A stretch of DNA of 64,000 nt, from contig WHVA01000377.1 of the NCBI GenBank assembly GCA_015179125.1, positions 1 to 64,000 of the forward strand, read 5' to 3'. Source of the DNA: Gautieria morchelliformis. Lineage: Eukaryota; Basidiomycota; Agaricomycetes; Gomphales; Gomphaceae. The notes under the pieces are model-generated. The model was given only the letters and a program-made list of their open reading frames with translations. It did no database searches and was not told the DNA's origin. This document shows, piece by piece, positions 480 to 32,235 of this stretch. Made by a program: the position numbers and the translations under genes. Each line of letters starts with the position of its first letter. Position 1 is the first letter of the stretch.

Positions 480-1290
480 TCCGATTTGACCGGCAAAGCT
501 GGATCCCATACATGGACACAACTGGCTCACCTGCTACAATCTGTTGATTGACTGGGTACTGGGCAGTATTACATTCCGAACTACCCTCCCGGGAGGTAAT
601 GACTACGGCTCAGTCAACCCGCAGAACTTCTGACCAATTTTCACTAATCAACAACTGTCGGAATCCCTCCGGGCAACTTGTTTACTTGCACCCATTCTCT
701 GAGCAAGCACTGTGATGGACTCCAAGAAGCTTCATGCCGACATTTAGCTAATTTGGCATCTGATCCCATAGCCACTTGGCATCTCGGTGATAGTTCTGAC
801 CCGAGATGGATGCAAACTGAGGATGGCTTCCTCCACCTCGATGGCCACATATATGTTCCCAATGCGGATGATCTCCGGCTCCAAGTACTTCAGTACAAAC
901 ACAACCATGTACTCTCGGGACATTTTGGTGAAAACAAGACCTTAGAACTCATCAGACGGGAATACACATGGCCCACACTTCTGTCTTTCGTCATTGACTT
1001 TTGCAAGTCCTGCACCACTTGCTTGTGTTCAAAGTCACAGTGTCATTGGCCTTACGGCTGCCTGCAGCAGCTTCCGATACCCGAGCATGCTTGGAATTCC
1101 ATCTCCATGGATTTCATTGAGCAGTTGCCAGTGTCTTTGGGATTCACTGCAATCCTTGTAGTAGTTTGCCGCTTAACCAAGCAGAGCATATTCATCCCGA
1201 CCTACGACACGGTTACTTCCGCAGACCTCACCCACCTGTTTGTCTTGCATGTATTCTCAAAGCATGGTCACTGCAGGCATACGAAAGTTT
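480..1290 (+). mobile_element. Gypsy (chromovirus-type) remnant, protease and integrase pieces
   Basis: Three pieces of pol remain in order. About 490-590 encodes the end of an aspartyl protease (GHNWLT-type motif). About 595-660 encodes the RNase H/integrase linker (VNPQN). About 740-1290 encodes the integrase zinc finger (H...H...C...C) and the start of the integrase core (SMDFIEQLP). Wording is close to Gypsy-1 at 2915-11154, so it is the same or a sister family. It is an old, incomplete, broken copy whose right end is cut by the foldback element. Confidence 0.8.
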
Positions 1291-1647
1291 TCTTGTCTGA
1301 AAAACTGTTCAAAATACTGTAAAGATATTCCAAATATTTTTAGTGATTTTTATGTAAAAAAACTATAATAAAATTTTGTGTTTTATTAGAATTTGTTGAG
1401 CAAGAAAATTGTAAAAAAATTCGAAGTTTTTTTTCAGGGTTTTTTATGGGTTTCTTTGTGTTTTCACAAAGAAACTTATAAAAAGACATAAAAAACCCTG
1501 CAAAAAACTTTAAATGTTTTTACAATTTTCTTGCCTCAACAAATTCTAACAAAAACACAAAATTATGTTAAAGTTTTTTTACATTAAAAACACTAAAAAA
1601 AACTTGGAATATCTTTACAGTTTTTTGAACAGTTTTTCAGATCAGAA
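1290..1647. mobile_element. Foldback/MITE-like palindromic element
   Basis: The sequence is one long imperfect palindrome. The left arm begins TCTGAAAAACTGTTC at 1296, and its reverse complement ends at 1641. The centre near 1462-1478 is a tight hairpin (TTTCTTTGTG / CACAAAGAAA). It is very AT-rich, has no coding capacity and sits inside integrase sequence. It could be a foldback element or a MITE with very long terminal inverted repeats. No clear target duplication was found, so the superfamily is unassigned. Confidence 0.7.
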
Positions 1648-2914: not shown

Positions 2915-3470
2915 TGTTACGATACGATCTGTTGTAAGGTTGACCGAGGTCAGGAGCGAAACCCGAGGTACGGTCCGAGGTTACAGGGCGAGGTTTGGAT
3001 GGGGAAGTCGGAGAGGAACTAGGCTTCAGCTTATGTGCTGCGCTGACCCTACGCACGAGTCCCAACTTCGGAGGCAAACAAATAAGAGGCGAGGTTTGGC
3101 TTTAAGAGGCGAGGCTTAGACACTAACTAAGGATCGAAGTTATACGATAGTTGATTTTCAGACTGAGGAGTAGGAATGCATACAGGGGGGTTTATATATG
3201 GGGCGAGGGTACGAGTCAGGGGCGAACATATCAGTGGGGATCAGGGCAAGGTCAGGGCAAGGTCAGGGCAAGGTAATATATGAATGATGCGTGATGGAGT
3301 GGAATCAGTAACTAAGGGAATACGGGCATGGGATCAAGGTCGGATATGAGCTCTAGCTCGGGCTCGGGCGCAGGATAAGAATCATGTGTACTCGGGCACG
3401 AGTATCACAAGGCTCGGGCTCAGAAGAAAGTTATACCGGTAAGTAACTGGCCAAAGGCCGGGTTCTTACA
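2915..3470 (-). repeat. Gypsy-1 3' LTR
   Basis: 556 bp, bounded by TGTTACGATA on the plus-strand left and TTCTTACA on the right. It is slightly longer than its partner because of small internal duplications (an AAGAGGCGAGG-type repeat and a GGGCAAGGTCA-type repeat). Most substitutions against the other LTR are CpG to TpG/CpA. Confidence 0.92.
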
Positions 3471-3641
3471 GTATCCCCTCCTTATGGCTGAGACCCTCGA
3501 GGCCGTAATGTGAACAAGGTTCACCTATCCTCGAATCTAGATCCTGGCCCGATGTTAAGTCACCGGAAAGGTGAAGCTTAATCATAGCCGAGGTTAGATA
3601 AAAGGGTGGGTAGGAGGCAGCAAACCCAAGTGCCAACGAAT

Positions 3642-4761
3642 ATGGTGCGCCCCCAAGCTCTCTTTAACTCCGCTATCGACGAAAACAGCGCGAACAACGT
3701 GTTCGACCAGACCTTGTTGTCTGAGGAGGACGGCCCCTCGGGCGAGGTTATGCCCGAGGTTCGACCTGACGTGGTTCCGTGGCCCATCGAGGATGCGGGG
3801 GCCATAGACATGCAGAAGCCGTGGCAGGAAGGGCCCAACGGCAAGAAGGTGAGTCCCGTCGTTGTCTGGTCATGGACGCTGCTGACTTGTATAGTATAAA
3901 CACATGTTGTTCTCGTACCACCCTACCGACTTGTCCCTATATGGGTACAAGCTCGCCGACGGAGGACCTCATGAGTGGCAACTCGCGACCAAGGCCGAGG
4001 CGAGGTGCGCGCGCTGTGAAGAGCGCGACTATACGTGCCTTCGGGTCGTTAGTCTCGACTTCGGCCTCGCCGACCAGGGTGCCTGTGTGTGGTGCAGGAC
4101 ACACTCTTTGGGCTGCAGTATAGCCCACGGTCGTCGCAGCAAGGCGACCCCAGGAAAGGGAAAGGCGAGTGCCTTGGGCAAGAAGCGGGCGAGGAGCGAG
4201 GACCCCGAGGATGGACCGAGGCCGAGGAAAGAGGCCAAGGTTCGGGACGAGGTTGCAGAGGACGATGACTCAAGTGACTGGGTCGAGCGGAACCTCGAGA
4301 TGAGGGTGGAGCAGATGGAAGTGAGGTTGAGCGAGGAGAAGGGTAAGGGGTCAGAGGGAGCGAGGCGGAGTGAGGGGAAGGAAGCCGAGGTAGTGGAAAC
4401 CGAGGTGGAAGGTCGGAGGGCGAAGAAGGACAAGAAGACGAAAAGGTCGGAGCGAAGTGCGGAGATGAGGGAGTTGATAGCGGCGGTGAGGGATGTGGGG
4501 CAGAAGGTTGGCGAGGTTGGGGAAAGGGTGTGTGAGTTGTTGGGGGAGTTTAGGGCTGCGAATGATAGAATGAACCGGGCGGATGTGGAGTTCATGAGGA
4601 TAAGGAGCAGGCGGAATTACTTGAAGCGGATGCAGGGGGCGAGGGACTTGGCGGATTATGGGGGACATGGGGGTCTGGTGGAGCGAAGTAGTAGTAGTAA
4701 TGAGAAGTCAGGCGAGGGTAGCGAGGAGAGCGAGGGAGAGGATATGAGGATGTTGGAGTAA
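3642..4761 (+). CDS. Antisense two-exon gene inside Gypsy-1, Zn2Cys6-like
   Basis: Predicted protein of about 357 aa from an ATG at 3642. Exon 1 is 3642-3848, the intron 3849-3894 (GTGAGT donor, CTGAC branch site, ATAG acceptor) and exon 2 is 3895-4761. Exon 1 is exactly 69 codons, so the frame is kept. Exon 2 has six cysteines spaced CX2CX6C-X15-CX2CX6C (4006-4116). This resembles the fungal Zn2Cys6 cluster but with a longer linker. A basic stretch (GKKRAR) and a long charged coiled coil follow. It lies antisense to pol, between the chromodomain and the 3' LTR. A DNA- or RNA-binding accessory protein is an inference; I do not recognise a named family. Alternatively it could be a captured host gene. 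Confidence 0.7.
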
Positions 4762-4879
4762 ACTGGTAAATGGGATAATGGAATTTTTCTTGGATTTTAT
4801 TGATTTTTTTGGTGTTGTTCGATTGCGAGGGGATTTTGTTATCTAACTACTGGGTCATGGGGATTAAACAAGAAAACGA

Positions 4880-6240
4880 TCATAGAGCAGTCAAAGGGCC
4901 CGGCTTGCCCAGGTAAGATTCGTGGAAGTCAGTGACCAGCTCCGAGGCATGATCAAGCTCGGAAGCGAGGATCCACGAGGTTTCTTCGTCGGTACCTTCG
5001 TAACCAGTCCACCTAACAAGATAGAGCAGCTTGGAGCTCCTTCGTCTATTATCAATCTTCGAGTCGAGGATTTCGGAGACTTCGAACTCGGGCTCGCCGT
5101 CGATAATGACTGGGGGTGGAGGTGGCTGAACTCGGTTTGGGATGGTGTTGGGCGAGGCTGGTTCGAGCATGGATACGTGGAATACTGGATGGACTGAATG
5201 CATGTGTTCTGGAAGTCAAAGGGTGAAGGAGTGAGTACCTGCTCGGGAAATGGTCTCGAAAGGACCCAAGAACTTCTCGGCGAGCTTCTCGGTAGGCCGA
5301 GTTGTTCTGAAATACTGTGCCTTTACAAAGGCGAGGGATCCTACTTGGAAATCAGAAGCGGATTTGCGGCGAACATCAGCCGAGGCTTGGTAGGTCTTCT
5401 GAGCCTCGAGGATGGCGCGGCGAAGTTCTTGGTGTAGCTCGTCCAGGTCAACCACGAAGTCTCAAGCTCGTGCCGAGGCGAGGTCGCGCTCGGGGTGGAC
5501 TGCGAGGTTCAGGTGGTAACCCTTATTAGCAAAGAATGGGGATATGCCGGTGGTTGCGCTAGGGCGCATTGTTGTAAGCGAACTCGGCTAGGGGAAGGAG
5601 CGAAGCCCAATTGGACTGTTGATAGTTGTAGTATATCCTGAGGTACTGTTCCAAGGTCTGGTTAGCACGCTCGGTTTGATCGTCACCCTCGGGATGATAT
5701 CCTGAGGTAAAATGCAACCGCATGTCGAAGGCTTTCCCTAGAGAACGCCAGAAGTGTGAGACGAACTCGGAACCCCTGTCCGAGATGACGTGCGAGGGGA
5801 ATCCATGCTTGGAAAAGACATGAAGGATGAAGAGGTGAGCGAGCTCTTGCGAGGTTATCTTGTCGGTGGTTGGAATGAAGATAACCTGCTTAGTGAAGCG
5901 GTCAACAATCACAAGTATGGAGGTGAACTCGGATGAAGGGGGGAGCTGCTCAATTAAATCCATAGAGATGGAATTCCAAGGCTTCTCGGGAACGGGAAGT
6001 TGTTTGAGGAGACCATAGGGCTTGTGACGTTGCGGCTTGCTTCGCATACAAGTGGTACACGTCTTGCAATACTCCTTGACAAAGGATCTAATCCCTGGCC
6101 AAGTGTAGTCTTGTCAGATCAACTCCAAGGTCTTGTTGACCCCGAAGTGTCCCGAGAGAATATGATCGTGCTTGTATTGCAGGATGCGAAGTCGAAGGTC
6201 TTGGGCCGCTGGAACATAGGTACAGTCGTCAAGCTTGAGA
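4880..6240 (-). pseudogene. Gypsy-1 integrase and chromodomain part
   Basis: The upstream part encodes the integrase zinc-binding region (YKHDHILSGHFG, CX2C pair) and catalytic core (SMDLIEQLPP, ISDRGSEFVS, TERANQTLEQ). The downstream end, about 4880-5203, encodes a chromodomain (YLVRWTGYEG, ETSW). Chromodomains on integrases steer insertion toward heterochromatin in known chromoviruses. Fossil copy. Confidence 0.88.
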
Positions 6241-6243
6241 CAG

Positions 6244-6579
6244 TGTCAGGGTTCACGCATTTCCTTCCACAAGTTTCTATTTCCTTCCATGAGTTTCCGT
6301 CACCTTCTGTCAGTTTCCATAACCTTCCGTCACATTCTGTCACATTCTATCACATGTCACCTTCCATCACTTTCTGTCCCCTTCCGTAACCTTCTACAAG
6401 TTTCCGTCTCCCCTATTATGTAAGCCTTGCCAGCGCTATAAGACTGTAGCCCGTGTGGTGGTGTTTCCTCAGCTTGATCTCTGAGGATACCCACTACACA
6501 GTTGGTCATTGTCCTAGCATCGGCTCTTATCTCCTCGAGTATCTTTGCTTGTGGCTTCATCATTAGTGTTGCCCTCACA
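6244..6579 (+). mobile_element. Small TG...CA element (solo-LTR-like), copy A
   Basis: 336 bp with ends TGTCAGGG and CCCTCACA and a perfect 5-bp target duplication GACAG (6239-6243, 6580-6584). It matches 8415-8816 in inverted orientation. TG...CA ends and 5-bp duplications point to a solo LTR or a very small non-autonomous LTR element. The first half is a run of CCTTCCGT/TTTCC-type short repeats. Confidence 0.8.
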
Positions 6580-6589
6580 GACAGCCCTC

Positions 6590-8410
6590 GGGGCCTGTGG
6601 TCCACCTTGGGCCATTAACCAAGCCGAGGTGCGACTTGGCTATGGGGTCCAAGGGGAGGTTCGCTAGTATGTCAGCTCGGATCTGCTCGGTATCAAGCAT
6701 CGAAGCGGCTCGGAGTACGACGGGAGCGAGGTGAGTAGCTCTAAGGCACGATGCCAGCTGGTGTTGAGTAAATACTGGCCGTAGGTTCTGTGGGTTTATG
6801 GTGGCATAGTCGCTATTCCCCTCTTCAAGGTAGACATCCCATCGTCTAGTGAGAGATTCCAGCTTCGTTCTGAGGCGACCAGGTCGGAAGCGGATGGCGA
6901 GGTTGAATTGGGAAAGGTATTCTGACCACCGAGCTTGTCGACGGGTCAAGAGCTTCGTTGTTGAAAAGTATTCGAGGTTCCTGTGATCGGTAATAACGTC
7001 GACAGGGTCGCCAGAGCCCTCGAGGTAGTGTCGCCAGCGTTGAAACACTTCAAAAATTGCTAGCAGCTCCTTGTCATGAACATCGTAGTTGAGCTCAGTA
7101 GAGGTGAATGTGCGGGAGTGAAAGGCGACGGGGTGAAGTTCGCCTTCTGAGGTTCGCAGTGATAAGATTGCCGCTAAGGCATAATCTGAAGCATCAGTCT
7201 CTACGATTAGTGGAAGGTCAGGAATACAGTGGGTAAGGATAGGAGCGGTAGTGAACGCCCTCTTCAACAGGTTGAAGGCCTGTCGACAATCCTCGGAAAT
7301 GTTCCGAGGGGTACCCTTGCGGGTGAGTCGGGTGAGAGGAATGGTGATGTCGGAGTAGTTGTGAATGAAACGTTGGTAGAAGTTGGCGAAACCGAGGAAG
7401 GACTGGATGTCGCGAACTTTGCGAGGTTCAGGCCAGTCTTGAATGACCTTTACCTTGTCCTCCGCCATAGTGAGGCCCTCGGGAGAGAGTATGTAGCCGA
7501 GGAATTCACCCGAGTTGCAATGAAACTCGCATTTGTCTTCTTTGGCAAAGAGGTTGTTGAGTCGCAGTCGTCGCAAGACTTCCTTGACATGTTCAACATG
7601 TTTGGAGGGGTCACTGGAGTAGATTAGAATGTCATCCAAGTATACCACCACACAAACATCCAAAATGTCGGCGAAAATCTCGTTCATGAATCTCTGGAAA
7701 GCGGCAGGGCCGTTAGTGAGACCAAATGGCATAACCAACCATTCAAAAGACCCATAGCGAGTCCTGAAGGCGGTTTTCCATTCGTCACCCTCGGCCACCC
7801 TTACGAGGTGGTAAGCGTGACGAAGGTCAATCTTCGTATAGATGTGAGCATTCTTTGGAGCATCAAGTAAGTCAGCAATCAATGGTAATGGGTACCGATC
7901 TTTTTTCGAGATCTTGTTTAAACCTCAGAAGTCGACACACAACCAAAGTGAGCCATCTTTTTTGCGGAAAAACAATACCGGTGCACCATGAGGCGAGCAC
8001 AAAGGTCGGATGAAACCGATGTTCAAGTGCTCGTCGATGAACTCACGAAGTGCTTTGAGTTCGGAAGCTGAGAGAGAGTAGATGGGACCGATAGGCGGCG
8101 AGGTCCCTTCTTCAAGGTTGATCTTGATGTCTTGCGGTCGGTGGGGGGCTAGAGTGTCAGCACGTGCTTTGCTGAACACATCTGCAAATTCGTGATATAC
8201 TTCGGGAACATGTTTTTTAACGTTCTCAGAAAGCTTGGGAGAGCTTTCTCCTGATGTTGCTCCTCGGGCGAGGAGCTCAGGCGAGGCCAGATTGAGCTGA
8301 AACACTTCGGACCCTTCCAATCTAGACGCGTGCATGAAAGCGGGTGCATTGATTAGGGAAACGAGCGGTGCTTGCAACTTTGGAGGCGAGTTCTGAGGCG
8401 AGGTCGAAGG
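6590..8410 (-). pseudogene. Gypsy-1 reverse transcriptase / RNase H part
   Basis: Contains the RT palm motifs (KIDLRHAYH, the YLDDILIYS active-site block) and the RNase H region (VETDASDYA, DHRNLEYF). Upstream is the usual conserved linker (RLEGSEVFQ, FRKKDGSL). Order and spacing are typical of Ty3/Gypsy pol. Fossil copy. Confidence 0.92.
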
Positions 8411-8414
8411 CGGG

Positions 8415-8816
8415 TGTGAGGGCAACACTAATGACGAAGCCACAACCAAAGATACTCAATGAGATAAGAGCCGATACTAGGACAATGACCAACTGTGTAG
8501 TGGGTATCCTCAGTTTATAACTCTACCAACGATAGATACATGGGGACTTGCCTGTGTAGTGGGTATCCTCAGAGATCAAGCTGAGGAAACGCCACCACAC
8601 GGGCTACAGTCTTATAGCGCTGGCAAGGCTTACATAATAGGGGAGATGGAAACTTGTAGAAGGTTACGGAAGGTGACGGAAAGTGACATGTGACAGAATG
8701 TGACAGAATGTGACATGTGACAGAAGGTGATGGAAGGTTATGGAAACTGACGGAAGGTGACGGAAACTCATGGAAGGAAATAGAAACTTGTGGAAGGAAA
8801 CGCGTGAACCCTGACA
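8415..8816 (-). mobile_element. Small TG...CA element (solo-LTR-like), copy B
   Basis: 402 bp, ends as in copy A, with a perfect target duplication GCGGG (8410-8414, 8817-8821). It is 66 bp longer than copy A, mainly because a 20-bp segment beginning TGTGTAGTGGG occurs twice (8494 and 8553) around a 39-bp spacer. It is inserted between the protease and RT parts of Gypsy-1. Confidence 0.8.
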
Positions 8817-8819
8817 GCG

Positions 8820-9300
8820 GGGGCAAAGATGCCGTAGGCGAGGTCGTAGTCGTAGCCACAGCTGAGCGGGCTGACGTCGCCGTGGTCGCTGGAGTTGTAG
8901 TTAGGTCAATGGTCTTGAAAGTAATACTGCCCAATACCCAGTCAATCGACGGCTTGTAGCGGGTGAGCCAGTTGTGGCCAAGTACCACCGAGCAACTCGA
9001 GTCGAGCGAGGTTACGTAGAAGGTAACCCATTGTTGTTCACCAGTCGGAAAGCAAATACAGAGGTCTAGAGCTTGGGTAATGGTAGTGTTAGTACTACCG
9101 TCAAATAGTTTCAAGGGTATAGGAGAGACAGGGTAAGCAGGCATAGAGTACTTCTGGACAAATCTGGATTCAATAAAACAGTCTGAGGACCCGCAGTCAA
9201 CTAATGCAACAAAAGCAACGTTGGGAAGCGAAGGCGAGGTTAGATCTACATTAAGGGAATCTTTGGACAATGAATGAGCAGCGGCACTGAGTCTGAGCAC
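8820..9300 (-). pseudogene. Gypsy-1 aspartyl protease part
   Basis: Retropepsin-type region with ALVDCGSSDCFI at the active-site position and the hydrophobic GHNWLTRY block downstream. It lies between gag and RT as expected. Fossil copy. Confidence 0.85.
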
Positions 9301-9349
9301 ACGGGTGAGGTTACTGCAATCCTCGGATCGTGTGGTTCCGAGGTTGCTA

Positions 9350-10580
9350 CCTATTTTTTCACCTCCACAATGGAGGCCGAAGTCCCCTCGTTGGAGGTCT
9401 TCGCTGCCCGACCTTTAGAACCGCTACCGTTGGTAGACTTGTTCTTCGGGCAGTCCTTGACGATGTGGCCTTTGGTGCCGCAAAGTAGACAAAGGCCCTG
9501 GTCGACCCGACGTTGGCGTTCCTCGGGAAGTAGTTTGCCATCCTTCCCGAGCTTGCTCGATATGTCGGGCTGACTCTTGCTGTTCGAAGAGTTGTTGTTG
9601 GAACCCTTGCCGTTATTGTGAGTCTTGTTGCAGTTCTTATTGTTGTTGGAACCGCTGGAAGACTGGTTGTTGTTAGTGGCATTGCTGCTGGACTGATTAG
9701 CGGTGCATGCAGGCTGGGAGCTACGACCATTGATCATGGCGTCATATTCCTTATGCTCCCAGTAACGGCTGTCGCATTCCAGCGCGAAGTTCCTAAGCTC
9801 GGCGAGGCTGCGGAATCGAGGGAAGTGAAGTAAGTTGTCCTTGATTCGTTTGGCCAAGCCCTTGTAGGCGAAGTGTCGGAGGGCCGCGTCGTTCCACTGA
9901 GTCTGAGTCGAAGCTCGGGCGAAGTCGATAAAGAATCACACGGCCTTGTGGTGCTCTTTCATAACGATCTTCTCGAGGTCAATCTTGGCTTGGGCAGCGT
10001 TGTCGTATGGACCGAAGTTGAGCTCGAGCTCGACCTTGAAGCTGTCCCAGTCCTCGAGCCAATCTGGCTCTGGTTGTACTTCGCTGAGGATCGCCGGCTC
10101 GAAATACTGTAGAGCTGAGCCGGACAGGTAAGAAATAGCATACTGCACCTTCGAGGCCCCAGTCTTGAACGCTGTGGGATGATCTCGGAAGTTGAGTACG
10201 CATTGAAGGAAGAAGGTGCGAAGCTTGGCCTGGTCGGTACCATTATAACTATCCGGTTCCTTGACCTTGGCTTGTGCTTCGGACTCGCGAGGTTTCGCGA
10301 GTTTGATGAACACTCGACGCATAAGCTCGTTGTCCTCGAGGTCACCGAGGTCCTTGGGTGGCAGGTTGGGGAGATCCCGATCGTTGTCAGAACCTCCAGA
10401 GCCATCACCTGGATCACCTGAAGGGTCACCGGGGTTAGCCCTACCTTTGCCTTTGTTACTAGGCTCGGCGGGGTCTGCGAGGGGTATCCCCGGGGACGGT
10501 TGTGAATCGTTGGGGGCTTCCGAAAAACGTTGTTGTTCTGATATACCCTGAAGGGTGCGGGAACGAGTTATCATGGACAT
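9350..10580 (-). pseudogene. Gypsy-1 gag part
   Basis: Starts at the ATG at 10580 (MSMITRSRT). It has a Pro/Gly/Asp-rich N-terminal region, the retrotransposon-gag capsid-like core (YISGSA-like, then WDSFKVELELNFG), an Asn/Ser-rich stretch and a zinc knuckle (CX2CX4HX4C, CLLCGTKGHIVKDC) near the end. Fossil copy. Confidence 0.85.
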
Positions 10581-10610
10581 AGTGAAGAAAAGGGATACGT
10601 AGGGTGTAAG

Positions 10611-10622
10611 CAGTCTGAAAAT
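10611..10622 (-). promoter_or_regulatory. Gypsy-1 predicted self-priming primer-binding site
   Basis: The 12 nt ATTTTCAGACTG (minus strand) lies two bases inside the 5' LTR end. It is the exact reverse complement of an LTR segment at 10844-10855 that sits about 30 nt downstream of a TATA box (10881-10887). Such pairing is how Tf1/sushi elements prime reverse transcription from their own RNA end. No tRNA-like TGG site is seen. Confidence 0.7.
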
Positions 10623-10624
10623 AC

Positions 10625-11154
10625 TGTTACAATATGATCCGTTGTAAGGTTGACCGAGGTCGGGAGCGAAACCCAAGGTACGGTCCGAGCTTACGGGGCG
10701 AGGTTTGGATGGGGAAGTCGGAGAGGGACTAGGCTTCAGCTTATGTGCTGCGCCGACCCTACGCATGAGTCCCAACTTCAGAGGCAAACGAATAAGAGGC
10801 GAGGCTTAGAAACTAACTAAGGATCGAAGTTATACGATAGTTGATTTTCAGACTGAGGAGTAGGAATGCATACAGGGGGTTTATATACGGGGCGAGGGTA
10901 CGGGTCAGGGGCGAACATATCAGTGGGGATCAGGGTGAGGTCAGGGCGAGGTAATATATGAATGATGCATGATGGAGCGGAATCAGTGACTAAGGGAATA
11001 CAGGCATGGGATCAAGGTCGGATATGAGCTCTAGCTCGGGCTCAGGCTCGGGCGCAGGATAAGAATCATGTGTACTTGGGCACGAGTATCACAAGGCTCG
11101 GGCTCGGAAGAAAGTTATACCGGTAAGTAACCGGCCAAAGGCCGGGTTCTTACA
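10625..11154 (-). repeat. Gypsy-1 5' LTR
   Basis: 530 bp, with TGTTACAATA at the plus-strand left and TTCTTACA at the right. It is followed by the GTATT target duplication. The minus strand has a TATATAA box at about 10881-10887. Confidence 0.92.
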
Positions 11155-11159
11155 GTATT

Positions 11160-20653: not shown

Positions 20654-21128
20654 TGTCAGGGGACACCCTGTTTTCCATTTCCAGTTCCGACACCACACCC
20701 AGTTCCGACTCCATTTCCAACTCCGCTTCCGGTTCCGATTCCATCTCCCCCTCCGCTTTCGGAAATGATTCCACTTCTGGGAGAACTTCCACCAGTTCTG
20801 TTCGCCTTGCCAGTTCCACTCCAATTTCCGACTTCCACTCTCAGAACAGTGTCGGAAATCAAGCAACTCGCGTAATAGGTGGCATCAAGGGTCGATCAAG
20901 GGTCAGGGAGGTGCGATGGCGGGTGCCAAGTGTTGTCCCTGGCTGCGCAGCGTAGTATAATACAGGCTCGCTGACATTGGGGGTCCTTAGACTTTTCTCT
21001 TTGGATTTCCCCTTGTCAGGTGAGAATCCCCTCTCTTGTATGCTCTGTTCATTTATACATACTTTGGATTTCCCCTTGTCAGTTGTGTGGTAGTGTGATC
21101 TCCACAACTAGCCAGGGTTGCCCTTACA
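20654..21128 (+). repeat. Gypsy-2 5' LTR
   Basis: 475 bp, TGTCAGG...CTTACA. It holds a TATAATA box at 20956-20962 and, about 33 nt on, the AGACTTTTCT block (20989-20998) that pairs with the primer-binding site. Confidence 0.95.
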
Positions 21129-21130
21129 GC

Positions 21131-21140
21131 AGAAAAGTCT
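21131..21140 (+). promoter_or_regulatory. Gypsy-2 predicted self-priming primer-binding site
   Basis: AGAAAAGTCT lies two bases after the 5' LTR and is the reverse complement of AGACTTTTCT at 20989-20998, at the likely transcript start. This is the Tf1/sushi self-priming arrangement, different in sequence from the Gypsy-1 and family B sites. Confidence 0.65.
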
Positions 21141-21315
21141 CTCCCCTAGAGGACCGGCGGTCGTACTGCGCGTTGCATTCGCCATAGGTGCGTTCGGAAT
21201 CAGAGACAGCGACTCGGAGATCACAACCTCTTCCGCACACACAGCGTACGACAGCCCCTCTTCTTACGTCGAGCTCCCAACCCCGGAAATCCCGTCCCAT
21301 ATTTCTCCTTCCGAC

Positions 21316-22491
21316 ATGGATCCGGACGATCGTCTTCGGAATATGGAGGAGGAATTGACGCGGAACCAGATGAAGACCGACGCGATTGAAACAGCCTTAC
21401 AAGTGATTTTGGCTAAGTTAGATATTCCACAAAGTGGTGGAAATGAAATGCTGGATGATCCGGATTTCGGAAAAGCGGAAGCAGCGGAAGAGAGGATGTC
21501 CTCGAAATTAGCAAAGGTCAAACCCGCAACTCCGGCGGACTTTGACGGAGATCGGGAAAAGGGACGCGCATTCTTCAACACATGCAGCATCTACTTTGCA
21601 ATTGTCAGAGACCTCTTTCCGAACGACCAGGCTCGGATCCACTGGGCATTGTCCTTTTTCAAGTCGGACCGCGCAGCCTGTTTTGCAAACAAGGTGATCC
21701 GACATGAAGCAAAGGGCAAGGGGAACTACTTCCGGGACTGGGACGCCTTCGAGAAAACATTTTCCGACCAGTTCTGCCCGAAAAACGAGCAGCTCACAGC
21801 CCTTACGAAGCTCGAGGGGACCAGCTGGTACCAGGCCAAGGATCCAGTCGATGACTACATCGATCGCTTCCAGGAGCTCATCGACCTTGCGGAGTATGAC
21901 GATGATAAGACGATCGTCATCAAATTCCGACGAGGACTTGATCCGACACTCCAGAACCAAGTCGCGCTGCTTGGGGATGGAGCTCCGGATTTCGATGACC
22001 CGGAAGGGTGGTACCAAGCTGCGCAGAGGGTGTCCCGGAACAGGGAAGCAAACGAGGCCTTCGTGGAGACAAACCGGAACATGACACGCAGTTCCGCTCG
22101 TCCTACTCCACCTGTGCCAAAACCCAGAGGTGCATTCATTCCCACACGGAAAATATTTCCGACGCTTGCTCTGCCTGCTCCTGTTAGGAACCATAGCCCC
22201 CCTCCCTCAAAGGGTGGCCCTACCCCGATGGATGTTGACCGCATGCGTGGAAAAGGCCACAGAACTATCACCTGCTTCCGATGCCGGCAACCAGGCCACT
22301 ATGCTCGCGAGTGCCCCCAAGCCTTTGACATCCGGCTTATGACCACGGAGGAGAAACTCGAGCTCCTTCCAGAGTTCCTCGCACTCTCGGACATAAGCAG
22401 AGTGCCCACTGCGGAAGTATTTTCCGAAAATGCGGAACATGGTCCACCGGAGGCGGAAGATGCGTCGGATTTTGTGACGCGCAGCGGGTGA
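21316..22491 (+). CDS. Gypsy-2 gag
   Basis: Start chosen at ATG 21316 (MDPDDRLRN); the frame is open further upstream but has no earlier good ATG. About 391 aa. An N-terminal coiled coil is followed by the retrotransposon-gag core (WALSFFKSD, W..FEKTFSDQF, DYIDRFQELI) and a CCHC zinc knuckle (CFRCRQPGHYARECP) near the end. It forms virus-like-particle protein in known relatives. Confidence 0.85.
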   Translation: MDPDDRLRNMEEELTRNQMKTDAIETALQVILAKLDIPQSGGNEMLDDPDFGKAEAAEERMSSKLAKVKPATPADFDGDREKGRAFFNTCSIYFAIVRDLFPNDQARIHWALSFFKSDRAACFANKVIRHEAKGKGNYFRDWDAFEKTFSDQFCPKNEQLTALTKLEGTSWYQAKDPVDDYIDRFQELIDLAEYDDDKTIVIKFRRGLDPTLQNQVALLGDGAPDFDDPEGWYQAAQRVSRNREANEAFVETNRNMTRSSARPTPPVPKPRGAFIPTRKIFPTLALPAPVRNHSPPPSKGGPTPMDVDRMRGKGHRTITCFRCRQPGHYARECPQAFDIRLMTTEEKLELLPEFLALSDISRVPTAEVFSENAEHGPPEAEDASDFVTRSG

Positions 22492-25400
22492 GATGTGTGC
22501 CCCTGCTGCCTGTACATAACCGGTTTGCCTGTCTTGAAGTAGAGAATGAAAAGCCCCCACTCCCCTCACTTCGTACAGACCCACCGGATAAAGTCACACA
22601 AAAACCAAATCCGACACCCCATCCATCCCGCATCCGCCCTTGGGAGAGACGCCTTCCGAAGCGCTATGTTGTTGCTGCCACCCCTGGCCCCAAGTCACTA
22701 GTCATTAAGGTGGAGATCCAGACGACGGATACGGCGGAAGTCAAATCCGGACCCGCCCTTGTCGATTGCGAGGCCACTGGTCAGTTTATAGACCGGGACT
22801 ATGTGGAACGGAACCGACTGACCACGCGGAAGTTGCAACAGGCAATCCCGGTGTTCAATGTGGATGGAAACCCCAATGAGGCAGGGTCCATCACGGAGAT
22901 AGTAGACACAATTCTCCGCTACGATGGACACTCAGAACGCACCTCCTTTGCAGTGACCAGCCTGGGGAAGCAGGACGTCATCCTCGGGTTTGCCTGGCTT
23001 CAGGAGCACAACCCGGAGATCAATTGGCAGATGTCATGACCGGTTTATTTCTTCTACCGCGCTACCTCCATGTTCCCCCTCGTCACTCCCTAGCCTCTTC
23101 GGCAGAGTCCGCCGCACCTACCGACCACTCCTCCTCTACGTCTACTCTATTCGCTGTTCGCCCCATCCTCCAAACCGCTATTCGCTACTCGCACATTTCG
23201 CCAGGAGGCATGCCATCAAATATGATCAATACCAATCACCCGGCATGATGGTTCATCATTAGCCCCATCACCTTCTTAATCCAACCCCATTGGGTGTTTG
23301 TATGGCCAATGCATGTTCGCAGGGCGTCCCTCCTATAGGTCGTGCGGGATCAACCCAGTAGACCAAGAGTCCGTGCAGGGTAGCATGTATGCGGGTCCCA
23401 AGACATGGTTTTGTCCATAAGTGCTTTCGCCCCTTTACTCCCCGTTGTTTCATGCTCGCATTCTTCCCTCACTCTATTGTATGTTTATTCCATCTCCTTA
23501 GTATCATGACTGCGCACCCCTATCCAACCCTGACTCGTGACGGCCTCTTTCCTATTCGCTGATACCTTACGAACATTCGATATAAGTAGTTTACATTCGC
23601 ATGTATATTCTCCAGTTCAATTATCATACGTCGTCCATCTTGTGCAAACTTGACCTCGCTGTGATTATCATCTTAAGCCCTTCCTTGAAGATTTCTATCT
23701 TCAACCAGCCAAGGACTTAGGCATCACTGGTGAGTTCTCATACTTTATCTTCGTTACCTTAGTCTTCGAACTACTTTCTGTGCTGTTGGCGAAGGGCTCC
23801 AAAGGAGCACCTTCACCAGCGAAGGGACCGTTGAAACTTAGACAGCCCTTCCGTGACATCTTGCACGTTACATCGTCAAGTGTTGCGAGCTGTTTCGCTA
23901 CGACTGTAGGCGAGCCCCGTTCGGGCAACCTCTTTGTTTCATGAACATTCATCGGTTCACTTATTCGCCGAACGGCATAATTATTTGCACAAGTTATTCG
24001 GGCATTCGTTGTGTTCACTAATACACGATATTAACGCCTAAAAACCAATCTTGACAGCAGACTCGGAAGGTACTGATGAGTCGATGTCCAGCCAAGTGTC
24101 ACATGTGCCGGTCGGAAGTGCGGAAGGAGCGCCAGGAGCAGCGGAAGACCGAATGGCTCATACAGACATGTTGTTCTGGCCCCCATCCACTGCTTACAGA
24201 AGAAGACTCCGAAGCGGAATTTGAACCGGATCCCACTTCCAATTCCAATTCCAATTCCGACGTCATCCGACTCGGCCCGGAAGACACTCTGGTGGAAGGG
24301 GAGCGCTTGCTGTACGTAAACCTTCCGCCGGAGGCAGAACACATCCGCGCCACCGGAAATATTTCGCAACACCTTGCTGAAGCCTCCAAGAGGCATGATA
24401 GAGCAGAGGCGGAAATTCCGGAGTACCTGCGGGAGTTCGAGGACGTCTTTTCCAAGGAGTCGTTTGATGCCCTGCCTCCACGGAAGCTGTGGGACCACGC
24501 CATCGAGTTGGAGCCTGGGTCAAAGCCCACCAACTGCAAAGTCTACCCGCTGTCACCCAAGGAGCAGGTAGAGCTCGATGTATTCCTTGCGGAAAACCTC
24601 CGTACAGGGAGGATCCGCCCCTCCAAGTCACCCAAGGCATCTCCGGTGTTCTTCATCAAGAAGAAGGACGGCTCGCTCAGACTTGTGCAGGATTACCGGG
24701 CCTTGAATGCGATCACGATCAAGAACCGGTACCCCATTCCACTCATTTCGGAACTGATCACACAACTCCGTGGGGCAAGGTACTTCACTAAGCTGGATGT
24801 CCGCTGGGGCTTCAATAATGTCCGGATCCGGGAGGGAGACAAGTGGAAGGCCGCATTCCGCACCAACCGAGGACTCTTTGAGCCACAGGTCATGTTCTTT
24901 GGCCTCACCAACAGTCCTGCCACGTTCCAGATGATGATGAATGACATTTTCCGTGACATGATAGCAGAAGGGGTTGTCTGCGTCTACCTCGATGACATCC
25001 TCATCTTCACAAAAACAATGTCCGAACATCGGGAAGTCGTGCGGAGAGTGCTGGAACAGCTCCGGGAGTACACCCTGTGTCTCAAGCCGGAAAAGTGCGA
25101 ATTTGAGCGGACGCGGATAGGGTATCTTGGGGTGATTGTGTCAGAAGGAAAGGTGGAAATGGACCCAGTCAAAGTTTCCGGTGTGTCGGATTGGCCAGTG
25201 CCGCAGAACAAGAAGGAGGTCCAGTCCTTCATTGGGTTTGTCAATTTCTACCGGCGGTTCATCAAGGACTTCTCCTGCCACGCCTGTGCCCTCTTCGACC
25301 TCACCAAGAAGGAGGTTGGATGGCGGTGGGGAGAGCCGGAACAGGCCTCCTTCGAGAAACTCAAAGAGCTGATCACTTCTGCCCCGGTCCTGATCTTTCC

Positions 25401-27429
25401 CGACGACTCTCGCCCCTATCGAGTCGAGGTGGATTCTTCCGACACAGCTACCCAAGCGGTGTTGTCACAACAGTCATCGGAAGATGGTGGGGGTGGCACC
25501 CGATTGCCTTCTTCTCTAAGAGCCTCAGTCCGGTCGAGCGGAACTATGAGATCCATGACAAGGAGATGCTGGCAATCATCCGAGCGCTGGAGGAGTGGCG
25601 ACACATCCTCGAGGGTGCTCTATGCCCATTTGAGATCTGGACAGACCACAAGAACCTCGAGTATTTCCGCACGTCTAAGAAGTTGAACCGACGACAAGCA
25701 CGGTGGTCCCTACACCTGTCCCGGTTCGACTTCATGCTCCACCACCGCCCCGGCCGCACCATGGGCAAGCCCGATGCCCTATCCCACCGTGCGGATCATG
25801 GAAGAGGAAGTGGAGACAACGTGGATATGACACTGCTCCGCCCAAGTCTCTTTGCAATCCGTGCCCTAGAAGGAGTGACTGCAGTTGGGGCGGAAGCGGA
25901 AATGCTCCGGGATATCCGGAGGCAGTACCGGAATGGAGAGAAGGAGGAGTCGGTGGTGAAGGCAGTGGAGGAACTTCGGAAAGGGCACTCACGGTCTGTA
26001 TGGGCAGCGGAATGGTCGGAACGTGATGGACTGCTCCACTTCAGAGGCAAGGTCTACGTTCCAGGTGGGGCGGACCTCCGCCGCCGCATTGTGTCCCAGC
26101 ACCATGACACACGGGTCGCTGGGCATGCTGGGAGGTGGAAAACGCTGGAGTTGGTGGCTCGGAATTACTGGTGGCCTCAGATGTCCCGCTACATTGGACA
26201 GTACGTGAAGACCTGTGACCTTTGTCTCCGAACCAAAGCACAACGACATCCGCCCGTCGGAGAACTTGTTCCACTCCCGATTCCCAAATCCCGCTGGGAC
26301 ACCATCAGTGTCGACTTCATCGTTGAACTCCCAGAGTCTCATGGCTACGACGCGATCATGAACGTGGTGGATTCGGTAAGCAAGGTGTCCCACTTCATTC
26401 CGACGCACACGACGATCACGGCCCTCGGAGCGGCCCGCCTGTTCCTTGCACATGTCTGGAAGTTGCATGGACTCCCGAAGCAAGTCGTTTCCGACTGAGG
26501 TCCGCAGTTTGTCGTGGAACTGACTCGGGAGCTCTACCGCCTGCTCGGAATAAAGCTGGCTACCACCACAGCGTACCATCCGCAGGGTGACGGACAGACG
26601 GAACAGGTCAATCAGGAGTTGGAGCAATATCTCCGCCTCTTTGTCAATGAGAGGCAGGATGACTGGGATGAGTTACTTCCACTGGCGGAATTCCAATACA
26701 ACAACCATGTACATTCCGCCACACAACAGACTCCCTTCATGCTTGACTCCGGACGACACTCACGGATGGGCTTCGAACCAAGCCAGGCTGACTCCCGACT
26801 CGAGACGGTCAACGAGTTCCGAGACCGCATGGACTCCACCCTTTCGGAAGCCAAGTCGGCCCTTGCAAAGGCCAAGGATGACATGGCAAGGTACTACAAC
26901 CAACGCCGGGTTCCTGCCCCGGAGTACCAAGTTGGAGACAAGGTGTATCTAGATGCAAGTGACATCCGCACCACACGCCCTTCACAGAAGCTTGCCCACC
27001 GCTACCTTGGGCCCTTCACAGTGATGCGAGAGTTGGCGGAATGCATACCACCTCCGACTTCCGATGTCCATGTCCCGCCTCCACCCCGTCTTCAACGTGG
27101 TGAAGTTACTCCCTATGCTTGAGGACCCAATTCCAGGTCGGAAGGCTCGTCCACCACCTCCGCCGGAAATTGTAGAGGGGGAAGAGCATTATGTGGTGGA
27201 ACGGATCCTGGACAGCCGGTTTGTGCGAGGACGACTCCAATTCCTCATGAAATGGGAAGGGTATGGGTACGAGGAGAATTTGTGGGTCCCGGAGCAAGAT
27301 GTTTCCGCTCCAGACAAACTCTGGGAGTTCTATAGGACACATCCCGGTTCCCCTCGCCGGATCTGGTCGCTGGCATTTCAATCCCTCGTGTCCCGTGCTT
27401 CGAGGACGCAGCACGCTAGAGGGGGGTGA
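22488..27429 (+). pseudogene. Gypsy-2 pol region (PR, RT, RNase H, IN, chromodomain)
   Basis: Parts in order: protease about 22690-23030; RT about 24550-25130 (FFIKKKDGSL, the YLDDILIF active-site block); RNase H about 25390-25790 (DSSDTATQAVL, DHKNLEYF); integrase about 26020-26760 (HHDTRVAGH zinc finger, SVDFIVELP, YHPQGDGQTEQ); chromodomain about 27160-27370 (ILDSRFVRG, FLMKWEGYG). It is broken by about three coding changes and by one LTR insertion. Confidence 0.92.
23032..24056 (+). mobile_element. Solo LTR family C inside Gypsy-2
   Basis: 1025 bp from TGTCATGACC to CAATCTTGACA, with a perfect target duplication GCAGA (23027-23031, 24057-24061). It contains a TATAAGTA box near 23581 and no coding capacity. 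The same family supplies 1-207. It inserted after Gypsy-2 and then lost its internal part by LTR-LTR recombination. Confidence 0.95.
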
Positions 27430-27913
27430 TGTCAGGGGACACCCTGTTTTCCATTTCCAGTTCCGACACCACACCCAGTTCCGACTCCATTTCCGACTCC
27501 GCTTCCAGTTCCGATTCCATCTCCCCCTCCGCTTTCGGAAATGATTCCGCTTCTGGGAGAACTTCCACCAGTTCTGTTCGCCTTGCCAGTTCCACTCCAA
27601 TTTCCGACTTCCACTCTCGGAACAGTGTCGGAAATCAAGCGACTCGCGTAATAGGTGGCATCAAGGGTCGATCAAGGGTCAGGGAGGTCAGGGAGGTGCG
27701 ATGGCGGGTGCCAAGTGTTGTCCCTGGCTGCGCAGCGTAGTATAATACGGGCTCGCTGACATTGGGGGTCCTTAGACTTTTCTCTTTGGATTTCCCCTTG
27801 TCAGGTGAGAATCCCCTCTCTTGTATGCTCTGTTCATTTATACATACTTTGGATTTCCCCTTGTCAGTTGTGTGGTAGTGTGATCTCCACAACTAGCCAG
27901 GGTTGCCCTTACA
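27430..27913 (+). repeat. Gypsy-2 3' LTR
   Basis: 484 bp. It is identical to the 5' LTR except for six G/A differences, all in CpG context, and a 9-bp tandem duplication (GTCAGGGAG). Confidence 0.95.
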
Positions 27914-28099: not shown

Positions 28100-31000
28100 C
28101 TAGGTGGATACCCGCACTTCGCGCGGGGTGTAGGTCAAACGCCTCGGTAAGGTCAAACGCATCAGTAAGTCTAATGCATCAGTAAGTCTAACGCATCGGG
28201 AAGTCTAACATATCAGTAAGGTCAAGTGCATTGGGGAAAATATCAAAGTAATCAATTTGCATCAAGTAGATATCAGAAATCAAGGAGCTCTAAGTAATAC
28301 ATCTTTATATACTATGTTGGTTGTGTTCAAACCCTCCTCAAGCAAGACCTTCACTTTGTTCCAGCTTGTTCCCCTTGAAACACCAACATACAACTGACCA
28401 TGTCCAAACACTGGATATCTCAGGTCCAGCCCAACCGTAACCAAAAACTGTCCCTGAGACTTGTTGATGGTCATTGCAAATGCCACACGCACTGGAAACT
28501 GTCTCCTCTGCAGCACAAATGGTAATTCTCCCTCTGATGGTGAAATAGTGATCCTGGGGATGAAAGCAGTATTTCCTGCACGTGGACCTGAGATGATCCT
28601 GACCTCCAACACTCTATTCCTCATCCTGACCAACCGCAACCTTGTCCCATTGCATAGTCCTTGCTTCTTATCCAAATTGCGCAACATCATCAGAGGCACT
28701 CCAGGCTTGACTTCCAAGTGAGCAGGAGGAAGACTGCCCATCTCTATGGAATTCAGATACTCCACAGGATACTGCTCTGCAAAGTCGGTTTCCTTGACAG
28801 AATCTGCACAGTGGAAGACCTGAGCATCACCTGGAAACTGCCTCAACACCATGGAATTGATCTCATTGACCTCAATATTTCTGGGACAGAGGATGGCCCG
28901 CTCTAAAAAATAAGTGTCCTGGGCAGGGATTGCATTGCCAATGCCAGGGTATATTTCCTGGATCAGCTCTGCAATTCCAGGGCCACAAACCATGTGAGGA
29001 GGGAGTGAGAACGTATGACCTAGTGGGAGATCCTTTCCCTGACCCACATTCTGCAGCCATTCTGCAAACCTGGCTCTGTCAGGGTCATTTCTCACCCGCA
29101 TGTTCTCTGTCAGATGGAGGACCTTGATCTTTGGCCACAGATATGACTTCTGAAGGGTAGCTCCCACCATATCCTCCTTGGAGCCTTTAGGGACAATTGG
29201 GAGAGTCTGCTGAACGTCACCTCCAAAGGCAACCGTGATGCCACCAAAGGGTCTGTCAGGCTGGTCAAGGAAATCCCTCAGTGTCCTGTCAATGGCCTCT
29301 ATGGCATGGCGATGCTGCATTGCAGCCTCATCCCAAATGATGAGCCTGGCCAGTCTCAGCATATCAGCCTGGTCAGAGTTCTTTTTGATGGAGGAGAGAG
29401 AGCCCTCATGGACAGGAATTGGAATTCCAAGCATGCTGTGAGAGGTTGTCCCATTAGTGAGGATAAGTGCAGCCATTGCAGATGAGGCTACAGCAAGCAC
29501 AATGAGACTCTCCGCTCTACAGGAGTGGATTAGGGTGTTCCATGTGAATGATTTCCCAGCGCCCCCTGAGCCAATGACGAAAAACATTTGTCCGTTAGGT
29601 TTCCCCTGAGCATCTATGTCCAGTGCTGACTGTAATACCTGATCATGTGCAGACCTTTGCCCCTCATTCAGCTTGGGAACCTCCTCATCAGCCTTCTGCC
29701 TCTCTTGAACAGGGTCATAGTCCCTCTGCTCAGCTATGAACCTGTTTCCAATCAGGACCTCCCACTCGCCTACCACCCGAGGCATATCTTTAAAGCTGCT
29801 CAAGGACATTCCATTACGCTGAAGGAGTTTATCCAAGAGAAAGAGGCCAAAATCATAGACATGATCATCCCGTGGCTCCTGGATATTGTGTCTGGTTTGG
29901 AGCCGATGTCTGAGATCATCACATATGTGCTCCTTGAAGCCGTCCCATAGTCTGTCAGGCTGTGAGGGAATGCAATGACCAAGGATGGTGGCAAAGAGAT
30001 GTCTGAGCTGAGCGCCTGTTTTCATGCCACTGGCTTCCTGGAGACACAACCTCCACTCCTGATCATCCTCCAGAAGTCCCCTGGAAAGACAGGCCTCCTT
30101 GTAAGTAGCACATTGTATGCCATCCACTGTCCTAAGCTCCTCAAAGGATCTGGCCCCCTTGACCACCGTGAGGAGAGTGCGCAAATAAAATATCTCTCCT
30201 GATTTTGGGCTTGCAAAGTGAAGGCGTCCAATGCTATATCCCCTTTGACGTGGTGTCCATACCCTTTGCTCTTTTTGCCAGGTAAAATGCTCAGGAAAAT
30301 CCACATAGAGCACATCGCGTGCATGAGGGTAGGCAGCATTAGCCTCAAAGTAAGCCATGAGCACTGGCTTTGACCCCTCGACCCTGTTCATGATGGTGAG
30401 TGGATCAGCATCAGGATTGAAAACGACTGATTGCTGGTCTTTTTCATGGACTGGCAGTGCCATGACTGCAGGCACCTGGGTGTGGATTTCCCGCTCCAGC
30501 AACCTCCAACAGGCCTCATGAGCACTGACATAGCGAGCGTCCAGGTACTTCTTTATCTCATCATAGTTGACACCAAACTCCATCGTGGTCCGATCGTGGC
30601 CCTTGTATAGATACTTGTGGATATACTTGACGCACCTCACACTGAAGGTGAATTCAAGGTTGATGTGACACCGGAGTTTGAGCAAGAGCAGAGGAGAGTA
30701 TGGCACAACCCATCTGTTGTCCAGCATGTCACCTCTGACATTGTGCAGCCTTCCATCATTGCGACGACGATATTTTGGATATCCATCTACATTCACAATG
30801 GTCTCCTCACAGAATGGCTTTGGGAAGCCTTTCTTGCACTTGCCATTTTCCATGCAGGGTGCATTTGGATTCATTTGTCCACAGGGACCATGTGTCATCA
30901 GCTCACAGACCAACTGGTAGAGGACAGGATGTGTCTCTGGATCAGGGAACTCTGCTGAAATCATAGAATCCACCTCATGTGCATGTTTGACATTGGACTC

Positions 31001-32235
31001 CCTATCGAACCAGGTAAGCAGGTGCATGTGTGGGAGCCCCCTCTTCTGGAATTCAATAGTGTGAACGCGAGCGACGGTTTCTCCAAAGATCTTGTCCTTG
31101 ACGATCAAGTCAATGAGGTATTTCTTTTTGAGGTGAAACACCCGCGACACCAGGTCAGGTCTGTCCTGAGCAGTTTGTCCAGGGAGCAACTCAGCCACTA
31201 TCTCATCCCACTTTGGATTGGCAGTCATGGTAATAAATAAATCAGGGGGACCCTTCTTTGTTGTAATGGCCAGGGAGTTCTGGCAGTTTTGATTCATGTC
31301 CCGTGTACTTCCTTGAAATGTCGCAGGCAGAATGACTTTTATGCCCAAGCTGTTTGCATCTCCAATGTCATTGTCCAAGCCTCCATATGAATCTACCATC
31401 TGGTTATACTGCTCAGCACCCAGAGTGTGTTGATTGGCCCTGATCCACCTCAGTCTGCTTTGCTCTGCAGCAGCCCAGGAGTCTACAATGTACTGCTGGA
31501 ACAATTTGCCACCACGCAGGAGTGTTGTAGGTTCTCTCGCTCTCTGGAACAGACGATACGCATGGTACTGTATTTGGGTGACCTGTGTCCGTCTGTTTGG
31601 ATTGGTATTGGCCTGCCGAGCACGCTCTGGCTCATGATAAGGAATACCTGGTTCCTATCCCAACTCTCCCTTGGGAAAGAGCAAGACATAGTGCAGAGAG
31701 GCATAGTTTGCATTGGTATCCAATACCCTTCTGAAAGGTCCACCTCTGAGCTGGACAATAATATCCCTAGGTCCAGGGTCGATGCCATCTCCAGGAAGAA
31801 CGACTGCAATCTCATCTGCAGTTGGGACATTATATCTCCTAGGATCCTGTGGGCCCTGTATGTGAGCCTTGCCTGGATGTCACCATTCTGTTCTTGAGCT
31901 CTGAGCCTCTCAGCTGCTTGTTTATATGTGCGCACATGAGGATTGCATAGCAGGAGCATTTCCTGCAAGTCTCCCATGATAGTTGGAGACAGACGCTCAT
32001 TACGATTTTTTCTCTTTGCCAAAGCCAGTGCAGGATCATATATGTAAAGCTGGGCATACTTTGGATCGTCTTCATTGTCAGGGAGGAGAGAGCCATGGAG
32101 ATGATACAGTTCACCCTGTAGCTTGAGGACATGTGGACCACGACCCTCCCGAAGCAAATCTTGGTCAAAGTCGGCCCCCACAGAAGTGAATGCAAACGCA
32201 GCATTATACTGCCTGATAACGTGCATGCTGCCATG
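28100..32235 (-). mobile_element. Helitron H1 (Rep/helicase-encoding), 5' truncated
   Basis: The 3' end at 28100 reads, on the minus strand, a CCCGCGCGAAGTGCGGG hairpin, a seven-base spacer, then CTAG and a flanking T. It shares subterminal GTCAAACGC repeats and the GAGCTCTAAGTAA block with H2, H3 and H4, so it may be the autonomous source of the family. The other end is lost: at about 32235 the Helitron protein sequence stops against Gypsy gag sequence, with no recognisable TC terminus. Confidence 0.85.
28280..32220 (-). pseudogene. Helitron Rep-helicase, N-terminus lost
   Basis: Replication initiator fused to a Pif1-type helicase, which drives rolling-circle transposition. The N-terminal Helitron-like domain is at about 31850-32220 (IRQYNAAFAFTSVG). 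HUH motif: GLPHMHLL (about 31020). Two-tyrosine motif: KYIHKYLYKG (about 30615). Helicase motifs: Walker A GSGGAGKS (about 29560), WDEAAM, FGGDVQQ, LTENMRV, AMTINKSQGQ, YVGVSRG. The frame 28280-31654 is open for over 1,100 codons. Upstream, a TAG at 31655-31657 stands where relatives have Trp (LGWEPGI), and a frameshift lies near 31850. The N-terminus is missing. It is therefore inactive as it stands, but the Rep and helicase cores are preserved. Confidence 0.9.

Follow-up and report, generated by a model that had tools for sequence, protein, structure and literature searches.

The window analysed here, 64,000 nucleotides of Gautieria morchelliformis DNA (assembly GCA_015179125.1, contig WHVA01000377.1, positions 1 to 64,000), contains a Ty3/Gypsy chromovirus copy on its minus strand, and on the opposite strand, in the stretch that separates pol from the 3' long terminal repeat (LTR) of this element, lies a spliced gene. 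The features to which we refer below are as follows.

678..1322, plus strand: integrase fragment of a sister chromovirus family, 72-87% identical to its listed relatives
2910-2914 and 11155-11159: GTATT repeat flanking the chromovirus copy on both sides
2915..11154, minus strand: Ty3/Gypsy chromovirus copy, delimited by LTR match, flanks and Pfam domains
2915..3470, minus strand: 3' LTR of the element, 88.9% identical to the other LTR with gaps counted and 95.2% over 524 aligned bases without gaps
3471..3641, plus strand: leader of 171 bases between the 3' LTR and the antisense ATG, delimited by conservation, with a presumed role
3642..3848, plus strand: exon 1 of the antisense gene, 69 codons, ATG at 3642
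3849..3894, plus strand: intron of 46 nt, phase 0, GTGAGT ... CTGAC ... TAG
3895..4761, plus strand: exon 2 of the antisense gene, 288 codons and stop
4006..4116, plus strand: six-Cys region CX2CX6C-X15-CX2CX6C, cysteines kept, Zn_clus match below threshold
4880..5203, minus strand: chromodomain closing pol, whose end is at 4880; Pfam Chromo with 35.8 bits (cut-off 25.1) and E 7.8e-9
5559..6047, minus strand: integrase core fragment, Pfam rve
6575..7882, minus strand: reverse transcriptase (RT) and RNase H, Pfam RVT_1 and RT_RNaseH
9351..10787, minus strand: gag region in two frames, Pfam DUF4939 above cut-off, zinc knuckle below cut-off
10625..11154, minus strand: 5' LTR of the element, from LTR comparison
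20654-27913, plus strand: second Gypsy element, with LTRs at 20654-21128 and 27430-27913 that are about 98-100% alike

The reading given in an earlier note on this DNA, namely a plus-strand gene with an ATG, a canonical 46-nt intron and in-frame exons inside a minus-strand Gypsy element, was confirmed on the sequence, as was the cysteine spacing CX2CX6C-X15-CX2CX6C that it reported. The spliced frame gives a product of 357 residues, and exon 2 encodes, in order, the six-Cys region (cysteines at exon 2 positions 38, 41, 48, 64, 67 and 74), a basic stretch, a predicted coiled coil and an acidic tail. Within the host element, Pfam matches above the cut-off include Chromo, rve, RVT_1, RNase H and a retroviral protease, and the chromodomain at the C-terminal end of pol identifies the element as a chromovirus. 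Its pol is split by two nested insertions, at about 6244-6580 and 8413-8816, and because pol is broken in this way and the LTRs are only 95.2% identical, the copy is not young. The two insertions are 91-95% alike and mutually inverted. The leader is presumed to act as promoter and 5' untranslated region of the antisense gene on the plus strand and as polypurine tract on the minus strand; its conservation (in 20-base bins over 21 rows, the majority fraction averages 0.93-0.99, compared with 0.87-0.97 in the first 120 bases of exon 1) fits a combined promoter and priming tract.

Elsewhere in the window, the second Gypsy element has no room for an antisense gene, since its last pol frame ends at 27122 and only about 300 bases are left. 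By eye, an A+T-rich, fold-back-like inverted repeat at about 1300-1640 interrupts the sister integrase fragment, and two long minus-strand frames, at 28280-32316 and 61998-63952, resemble in translation a Helitron helicase and a Copia polyprotein, respectively.

Conservation, selection and position across element copies

The gene is not confined to the window copy. With exon 2 as query, tblastn found at least 152 matches in the same 122-Mb genome, those listed being 73-100% identical, and 118 of 150 among the matches listed were free of stops. The gene content of this genome points to a fungus, and the basidiomycete family DUF6534 has nine matches above its cut-off there. Forty copies were aligned, a nonrandom set made up of the window, rows 2-21 of the match list and 19 of 20 places chosen for their divergence; L048 was left out by a length filter and L001-L008 as repeats of places already included. 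The ATG is kept in all 40 copies, and the intron, which is 45-48 nt long throughout, has the donor GTGAGT in 37 of them (L015, L033 and L043 are each one base off), the branch-site columns GCTGA in 40 and the final AG in 40, while its interior drifts, with gaps and with columns conserved in as few as 16 of the 40. Both exons are intact in 22 of the 40 copies. Of the 40 copies, 11 have stops in the proper frame of exon 2 (20 stops in all), and each of the other five frames is interrupted in every copy. Conservation in other copies, whose absence the earlier note had named as evidence against its reading, was thus found, with the splice signals kept and the gene in the same place in the element. 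One scan each of IMG/VR and of bacterial and archaeal genomes revealed no relatives, nor did phage records.

Selection was assessed as median pairwise NG86 dN/dS in the 22 copies with intact frames. In the gene's own frame the values were 0.217 (exon 1) and 0.191 (exon 2), while exon 2 gave 1.19 and 1.00 in the other plus-strand frames and 1.43, 0.37 and 1.34 in the minus-strand frames. The tightest constraint was seen in the coiled coil (0.127), followed by the Cys region (0.138), and the loosest in the middle (0.337). For comparison between regions, copies with at least 90% of the region in one piece were used (of 20 fetched stretches, 15 for RT, 14 for gag, 20 for the chromodomain, 14 for integrase and 20 for exon 2, plus the window); median values over these same full-length stretches were 0.188 for exon 2, 0.150 for RT/RNase H, 0.260 for gag, 0.080 for integrase and 0.077 for the chromodomain. 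By the comparison with RT, exon 2 is conserved about as well as pol, a property also used to define the aORF-3R genes of plant elements discussed below. Since the low dN/dS is limited to the gene's own frame and lies near that of RT and gag, the antisense frame is under protein-level selection, and the values are far below the figure near 1 that the earlier note had named as evidence against its reading. A minus-strand gene in the exon 2 region was rejected by the frame-wise dN/dS and the stop counts.

These data bear on two alternative explanations. The DNA is rich in G and A, with a GC skew of 0.34 in 4001-6000, and strong skew lengthens open frames; however, a chance open frame is excluded by the frame-specific dN/dS, the kept splice sites, the kept cysteines and the sister genes described below, and we give it a negligible probability. 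It is also improbable that the antisense transcript acts as RNA, as a double-stranded RNA or a long noncoding RNA that would silence the element, and that the protein matters little. Antisense transcripts of LTR elements have been discussed as a source of small interfering RNAs (passages in PMC7264820), and transposon-derived antisense long noncoding RNAs are described for Blumeria in the cited part of PMC10648671, but codon-level constraint in one frame only shows that the protein matters. An additional role of the RNA beside that of the protein is possible.

The gene lies antisense beside the chromodomain in all 20 fetched stretches, with an LTR on its far side in 19 of them (the exception is L016). 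Among 119 listed RT copies, 70 have the gene downstream in antisense orientation (55 with a listed gene and 15 with a match to its C-terminal piece), none has it downstream on the same strand, and 49 have none among the matches listed, a number that speaks neither for nor against the gene because the lists do not cover all matches. This count used 136 of the 150 listed exon 2 rows (of 152 matches) and set aside 14 rows that continue a split match. The gene thus sits after pol and before the 3' LTR and is antisense to gag-pol, both of which are defining properties of aORF-3R, and homologues lie antisense in this position, as the earlier note had proposed to check, in other copies as well as in the sister families.

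Sister families, age of the copies and allele exchange

Other members of the family represented by the integrase fragment at 678-1322 carry an antisense gene of their own. When the window protein was used as tblastn query, none of 12 sister loci yielded a gene, but comparison of antisense frames revealed one in six of eight stretches downstream of sister integrases. As read in six longer stretches, the sister gene has an exon that encodes a coiled coil, then a 47-57-nt intron running from GTGAGT to YAG, and then a Cys region, after which come a run of basic residues, another predicted helix-like region and an acidic tail. Its spacing, CX2CX6CX7CX2CX6C, is that of a canonical Zn2Cys6 cluster; in L066, the region reads REPCDACRRRQTRCLHGKKTAC.QCVDRKVRCSF, where the dot is a stop. 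All six fetched sister copies are broken somewhere (in L062, for instance, exon 2 is open, exon 1 is shifted and the sixth cysteine is lost), and open sister exon 2 frames exist elsewhere in the genome among the matches listed. At least 153 matches to the sister gene were found in the genome, those listed reaching down to 35% identity. Among 150 listed integrase rows, the sister gene lies downstream and antisense in 39 (37 of 74 in the first batch and 2 of 76 in the second, which was compared against listed genes on the same contigs), and the window gene does so in 36 of the 76 rows of the second batch. None of the 150 rows has either gene downstream on the same strand. The sister gene was found upstream on the same strand for two integrase rows, C651 and C230, which are probably rearranged, and the remaining rows have no listed gene. 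This count used 140 of the 150 listed sister gene rows (of 153 matches) and omitted nine second pieces and one 55-residue fragment.

Two LTRs were seen in 12 of the stretches formed by the window and the 20 fetched copies, one pair (L009) being rearranged. In four copies the LTRs are nearly identical (L018, 99.8%; L020, 99.8%; L026, 99.6%; L028, 100%), the 5-bp flanks match and the gene is intact, and therefore recently moved copies carry the gene. This does not amount to a simple picture of intact genes in young copies, as the gene is also intact in the old, pol-broken window copy and in L027, yet the LTRs of the latter are only 93% alike and its flanks are unlike. The gene is at the same time the most variable part of the element, with a median p-distance of 0.174 for exon 1 and of 0.050, 0.058 and 0.063 for RT, gag and LTR, respectively. 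The young copies differ from one another by 0.7-1.3% in RT, 0.2-0.8% in gag and 1-12% in exon 1, in sharp patches; in the four copies named above, these blocks lie in the gene and the short stretch between gene and pol, where as many as 26 of 100 columns differ if gaps are included, compared with 0-5 per 100 elsewhere, one insertion aside. The simplest reading of the blocks is an exchange of older alleles. By eye, the alignment of the family also contains many single-copy changes from Arg to Gln, Trp, Cys or His that resemble CpG decay, and the copies are perhaps methylated.

Taken together, the family-wide copies, the kept splice signals, the low dN/dS, the intact young copies and the sister genes in the same place identify the antisense gene as an accessory gene encoded by the element; it is neither a frame open by chance nor cargo recently taken from the host. 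The earlier note had offered captured host cargo as one of its two explanations, and as a recent or single-copy capture this is contradicted by a gene that is spread through the family, is seen in sister families too and is under constraint similar to that of gag and RT. Zn2Cys6 proteins are encoded by host genes too, and 17 Zn_clus matches above the cut-off were found in this genome, none of which, by eye, coincides with a listed antisense gene. That a captured host gene is carried without use to the element is highly improbable, given that the gene has spread across the family of the window copy and no fewer than one sister group and is under pol-like constraint; an ancient capture that later became useful to the element is compatible with the explanation that we prefer.

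The six-cysteine region

Fungal Zn2Cys6 regulators have the spacing CX2CX6C-X5-12-CX2CX6-8C, and in known fungal proteins this motif mediates sequence-specific DNA binding; the linker of AlcR is about 16 residues long, and predicted agaricomycete proteins with similar Cys patterns exist. In the window family the linker of 15 residues falls outside the range of 5 to 12, the sister linker of 7 residues falls inside it, and the first half-cluster of the window family is poor in basic residues. The six cysteines are retained in 176 of 180 cells in 30 copies. When the Cys region alone was searched, Zn_clus matched in two stretches in three of four copies with E values of 0.0064-0.064, all below the cut-off, and three of four sister pieces likewise matched below it; the best scores were 17.0 bits in the window family (L034) and 17.4 bits in the sister family, where the Pfam cut-off is 21 bits. 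With the whole of exon 2, only 3 of 30 members gave a Zn_clus match (best E value 0.29), and the spliced protein gave a single, chance-level Pfam match (MRP-S31, E 0.098). Neither exon 2 nor a profile of the window-family Cys region found a match in the PDB, and a profile of the sister gene found only the Zn2Cys6 protein PUT3, weakly (E 0.33). An hhalign comparison of the window and sister profiles aligned all six cysteines (E 2.6e-4, probability 42%), an alignment that may reflect the six cysteines alone. Both structure models were weak and gave no confident fold, one predicting a long helix at exon 2 residues 167-254 (pLDDT 52.6) and the other, of the Cys region, predicting two short helices in the right places (pLDDT 46.6). 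CGG and CCG triplets were not in excess over shuffled sequences in the LTR (16 versus 16.1) or in the leader (5 versus 5.0).

This evidence is mixed: the kept cysteines and the sister genes stand against the subthreshold scores, the linker length, the paucity of basic residues, the absence of a confident fold and the lack of a CGG excess. We thus use the term Zn2Cys6-like for the region and refrain from assigning it to the family. Judged from its sequence, the gene product is likely related to Zn2Cys6 clusters; the corresponding reading in the earlier note stands as to this relationship, by way of the sister genes, and the linker exceeds the spacing range that the note quoted.

Possible role of the protein and related systems

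As selection has preserved the protein across many copies, the element probably makes its own regulatory protein. We favor, with modest confidence, a reading in which a spliced antisense accessory gene encodes a Zn2Cys6-like protein with a basic stretch and a coiled coil that acts as a nuclear DNA-binding dimer regulating its own element family. Transcription of the antisense strand would start from a promoter near the 3' LTR, the transcript would be spliced once and translated into the 357-residue protein, and the protein, to judge from its putative zinc cluster, basic stretch and coiled coil, would enter the nucleus, bind DNA as a dimer and regulate expression of its own family, with activation, anti-silencing and self-limitation as candidate directions. 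The genomic RNA of an LTR element is the other strand, in which an antisense intron is not spliced and survives each cycle; the intron can thus persist through retrotransposition, its splice signals being on the strand absent from that RNA, which offers a reason why an antisense gene can keep an intron. Against a regulator speak the Zn_clus scores below the cut-off, the X15 linker, the few basic residues in the first half-cluster, the weak models, the triplet counts and, although the lists do not cover all matches, the 49 of 119 listed RT copies that have no listed gene.

The main rival to such a regulator is a protein that serves replication or targeting, for instance nuclear entry of the preintegration complex or choice of the integration site, and we regard it as possible but distinctly less probable. 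Its constraint does resemble that of gag and RT, but the gene would be carried on a separate antisense RNA and encodes a Zn2Cys6-like motif, which in known fungal proteins binds DNA. Such accessory functions are proposed for plant antisense genes by Vicient and Casacuberta in the cited part of PMC7264820. A more far-reaching version of the regulator reading, which we consider rather doubtful, is that this chromovirus lineage carries its own transcription factor, an intron-bearing antisense regulator of Zn2Cys6 type that would govern expression of the family through anti-silencing or copy-number control and whose alleles active copies would swap in the manner of an immunity or specificity module. 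The patches between young copies are, by eye, mostly synonymous and leave the Cys region nearly unchanged, and plain recombination with older alleles thus explains them equally well.

Several known systems resemble the gene described here. It shares with fungal Zn2Cys6 transcription factors (Zn_clus; PUT3) the two CX2CX6C halves followed by a basic stretch and a coiled coil, and it differs from them in its 15-residue linker, the few basic residues in the first half, the scores below the cut-off and its location in a retroelement. HBZ of HTLV-1 is a bZIP protein. Like the window gene, HBZ and other antisense retroviral genes encode accessory proteins on the antisense strand of a retroelement and are suggested regulators in the cited passages of PMC11963269; the host is different, and the likeness is one of description, not of sequence. 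A parallel in arrangement is the aORF-3R of plant Gypsy elements, as in maize Grande (gene23), rice RIRE2, Retand (with a TRP28 domain) and PvRetro13; as far as the cited passages describe them (PMC7264820, PMC11963269), these genes have the same place and antisense orientation, occur in many copies, are conserved about like pol and are suspected of nuclear or DNA-binding roles. In contrast to them, the window gene resides in a fungal chromovirus, has an intron and a six-Cys Zn2Cys6-like region, and contains no TRP28, SMC or other Pfam domain above the cut-off. Among fungi, brtn of the Boty element in Botrytis cinerea and Sclerotinia (Zhao et al. 2011, as cited in PMC7264820 and PMC8365987) is likewise an extra antisense gene in a Gypsy element, although its hosts are ascomycetes, the cited passages mention neither a zinc cluster nor an intron, and the two genes are likened by description and not by sequence. 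A literature search, with most subscription journals outside it, listed no work on a Zn2Cys6-like antisense gene with an intron in an LTR element of a fungus.

In summary, antisense genes of LTR elements are known mostly from plants, and the window family adds to the question of their role an example from a fungus, in which intact copies are numerous, some insertions are young and sister families have a recognizable Zn2Cys6 spacing. Its diagnostic intron would expose antisense expression in ordinary RNA-seq data, and together these features make it directly testable whether LTR elements encode their own transcriptional regulators.
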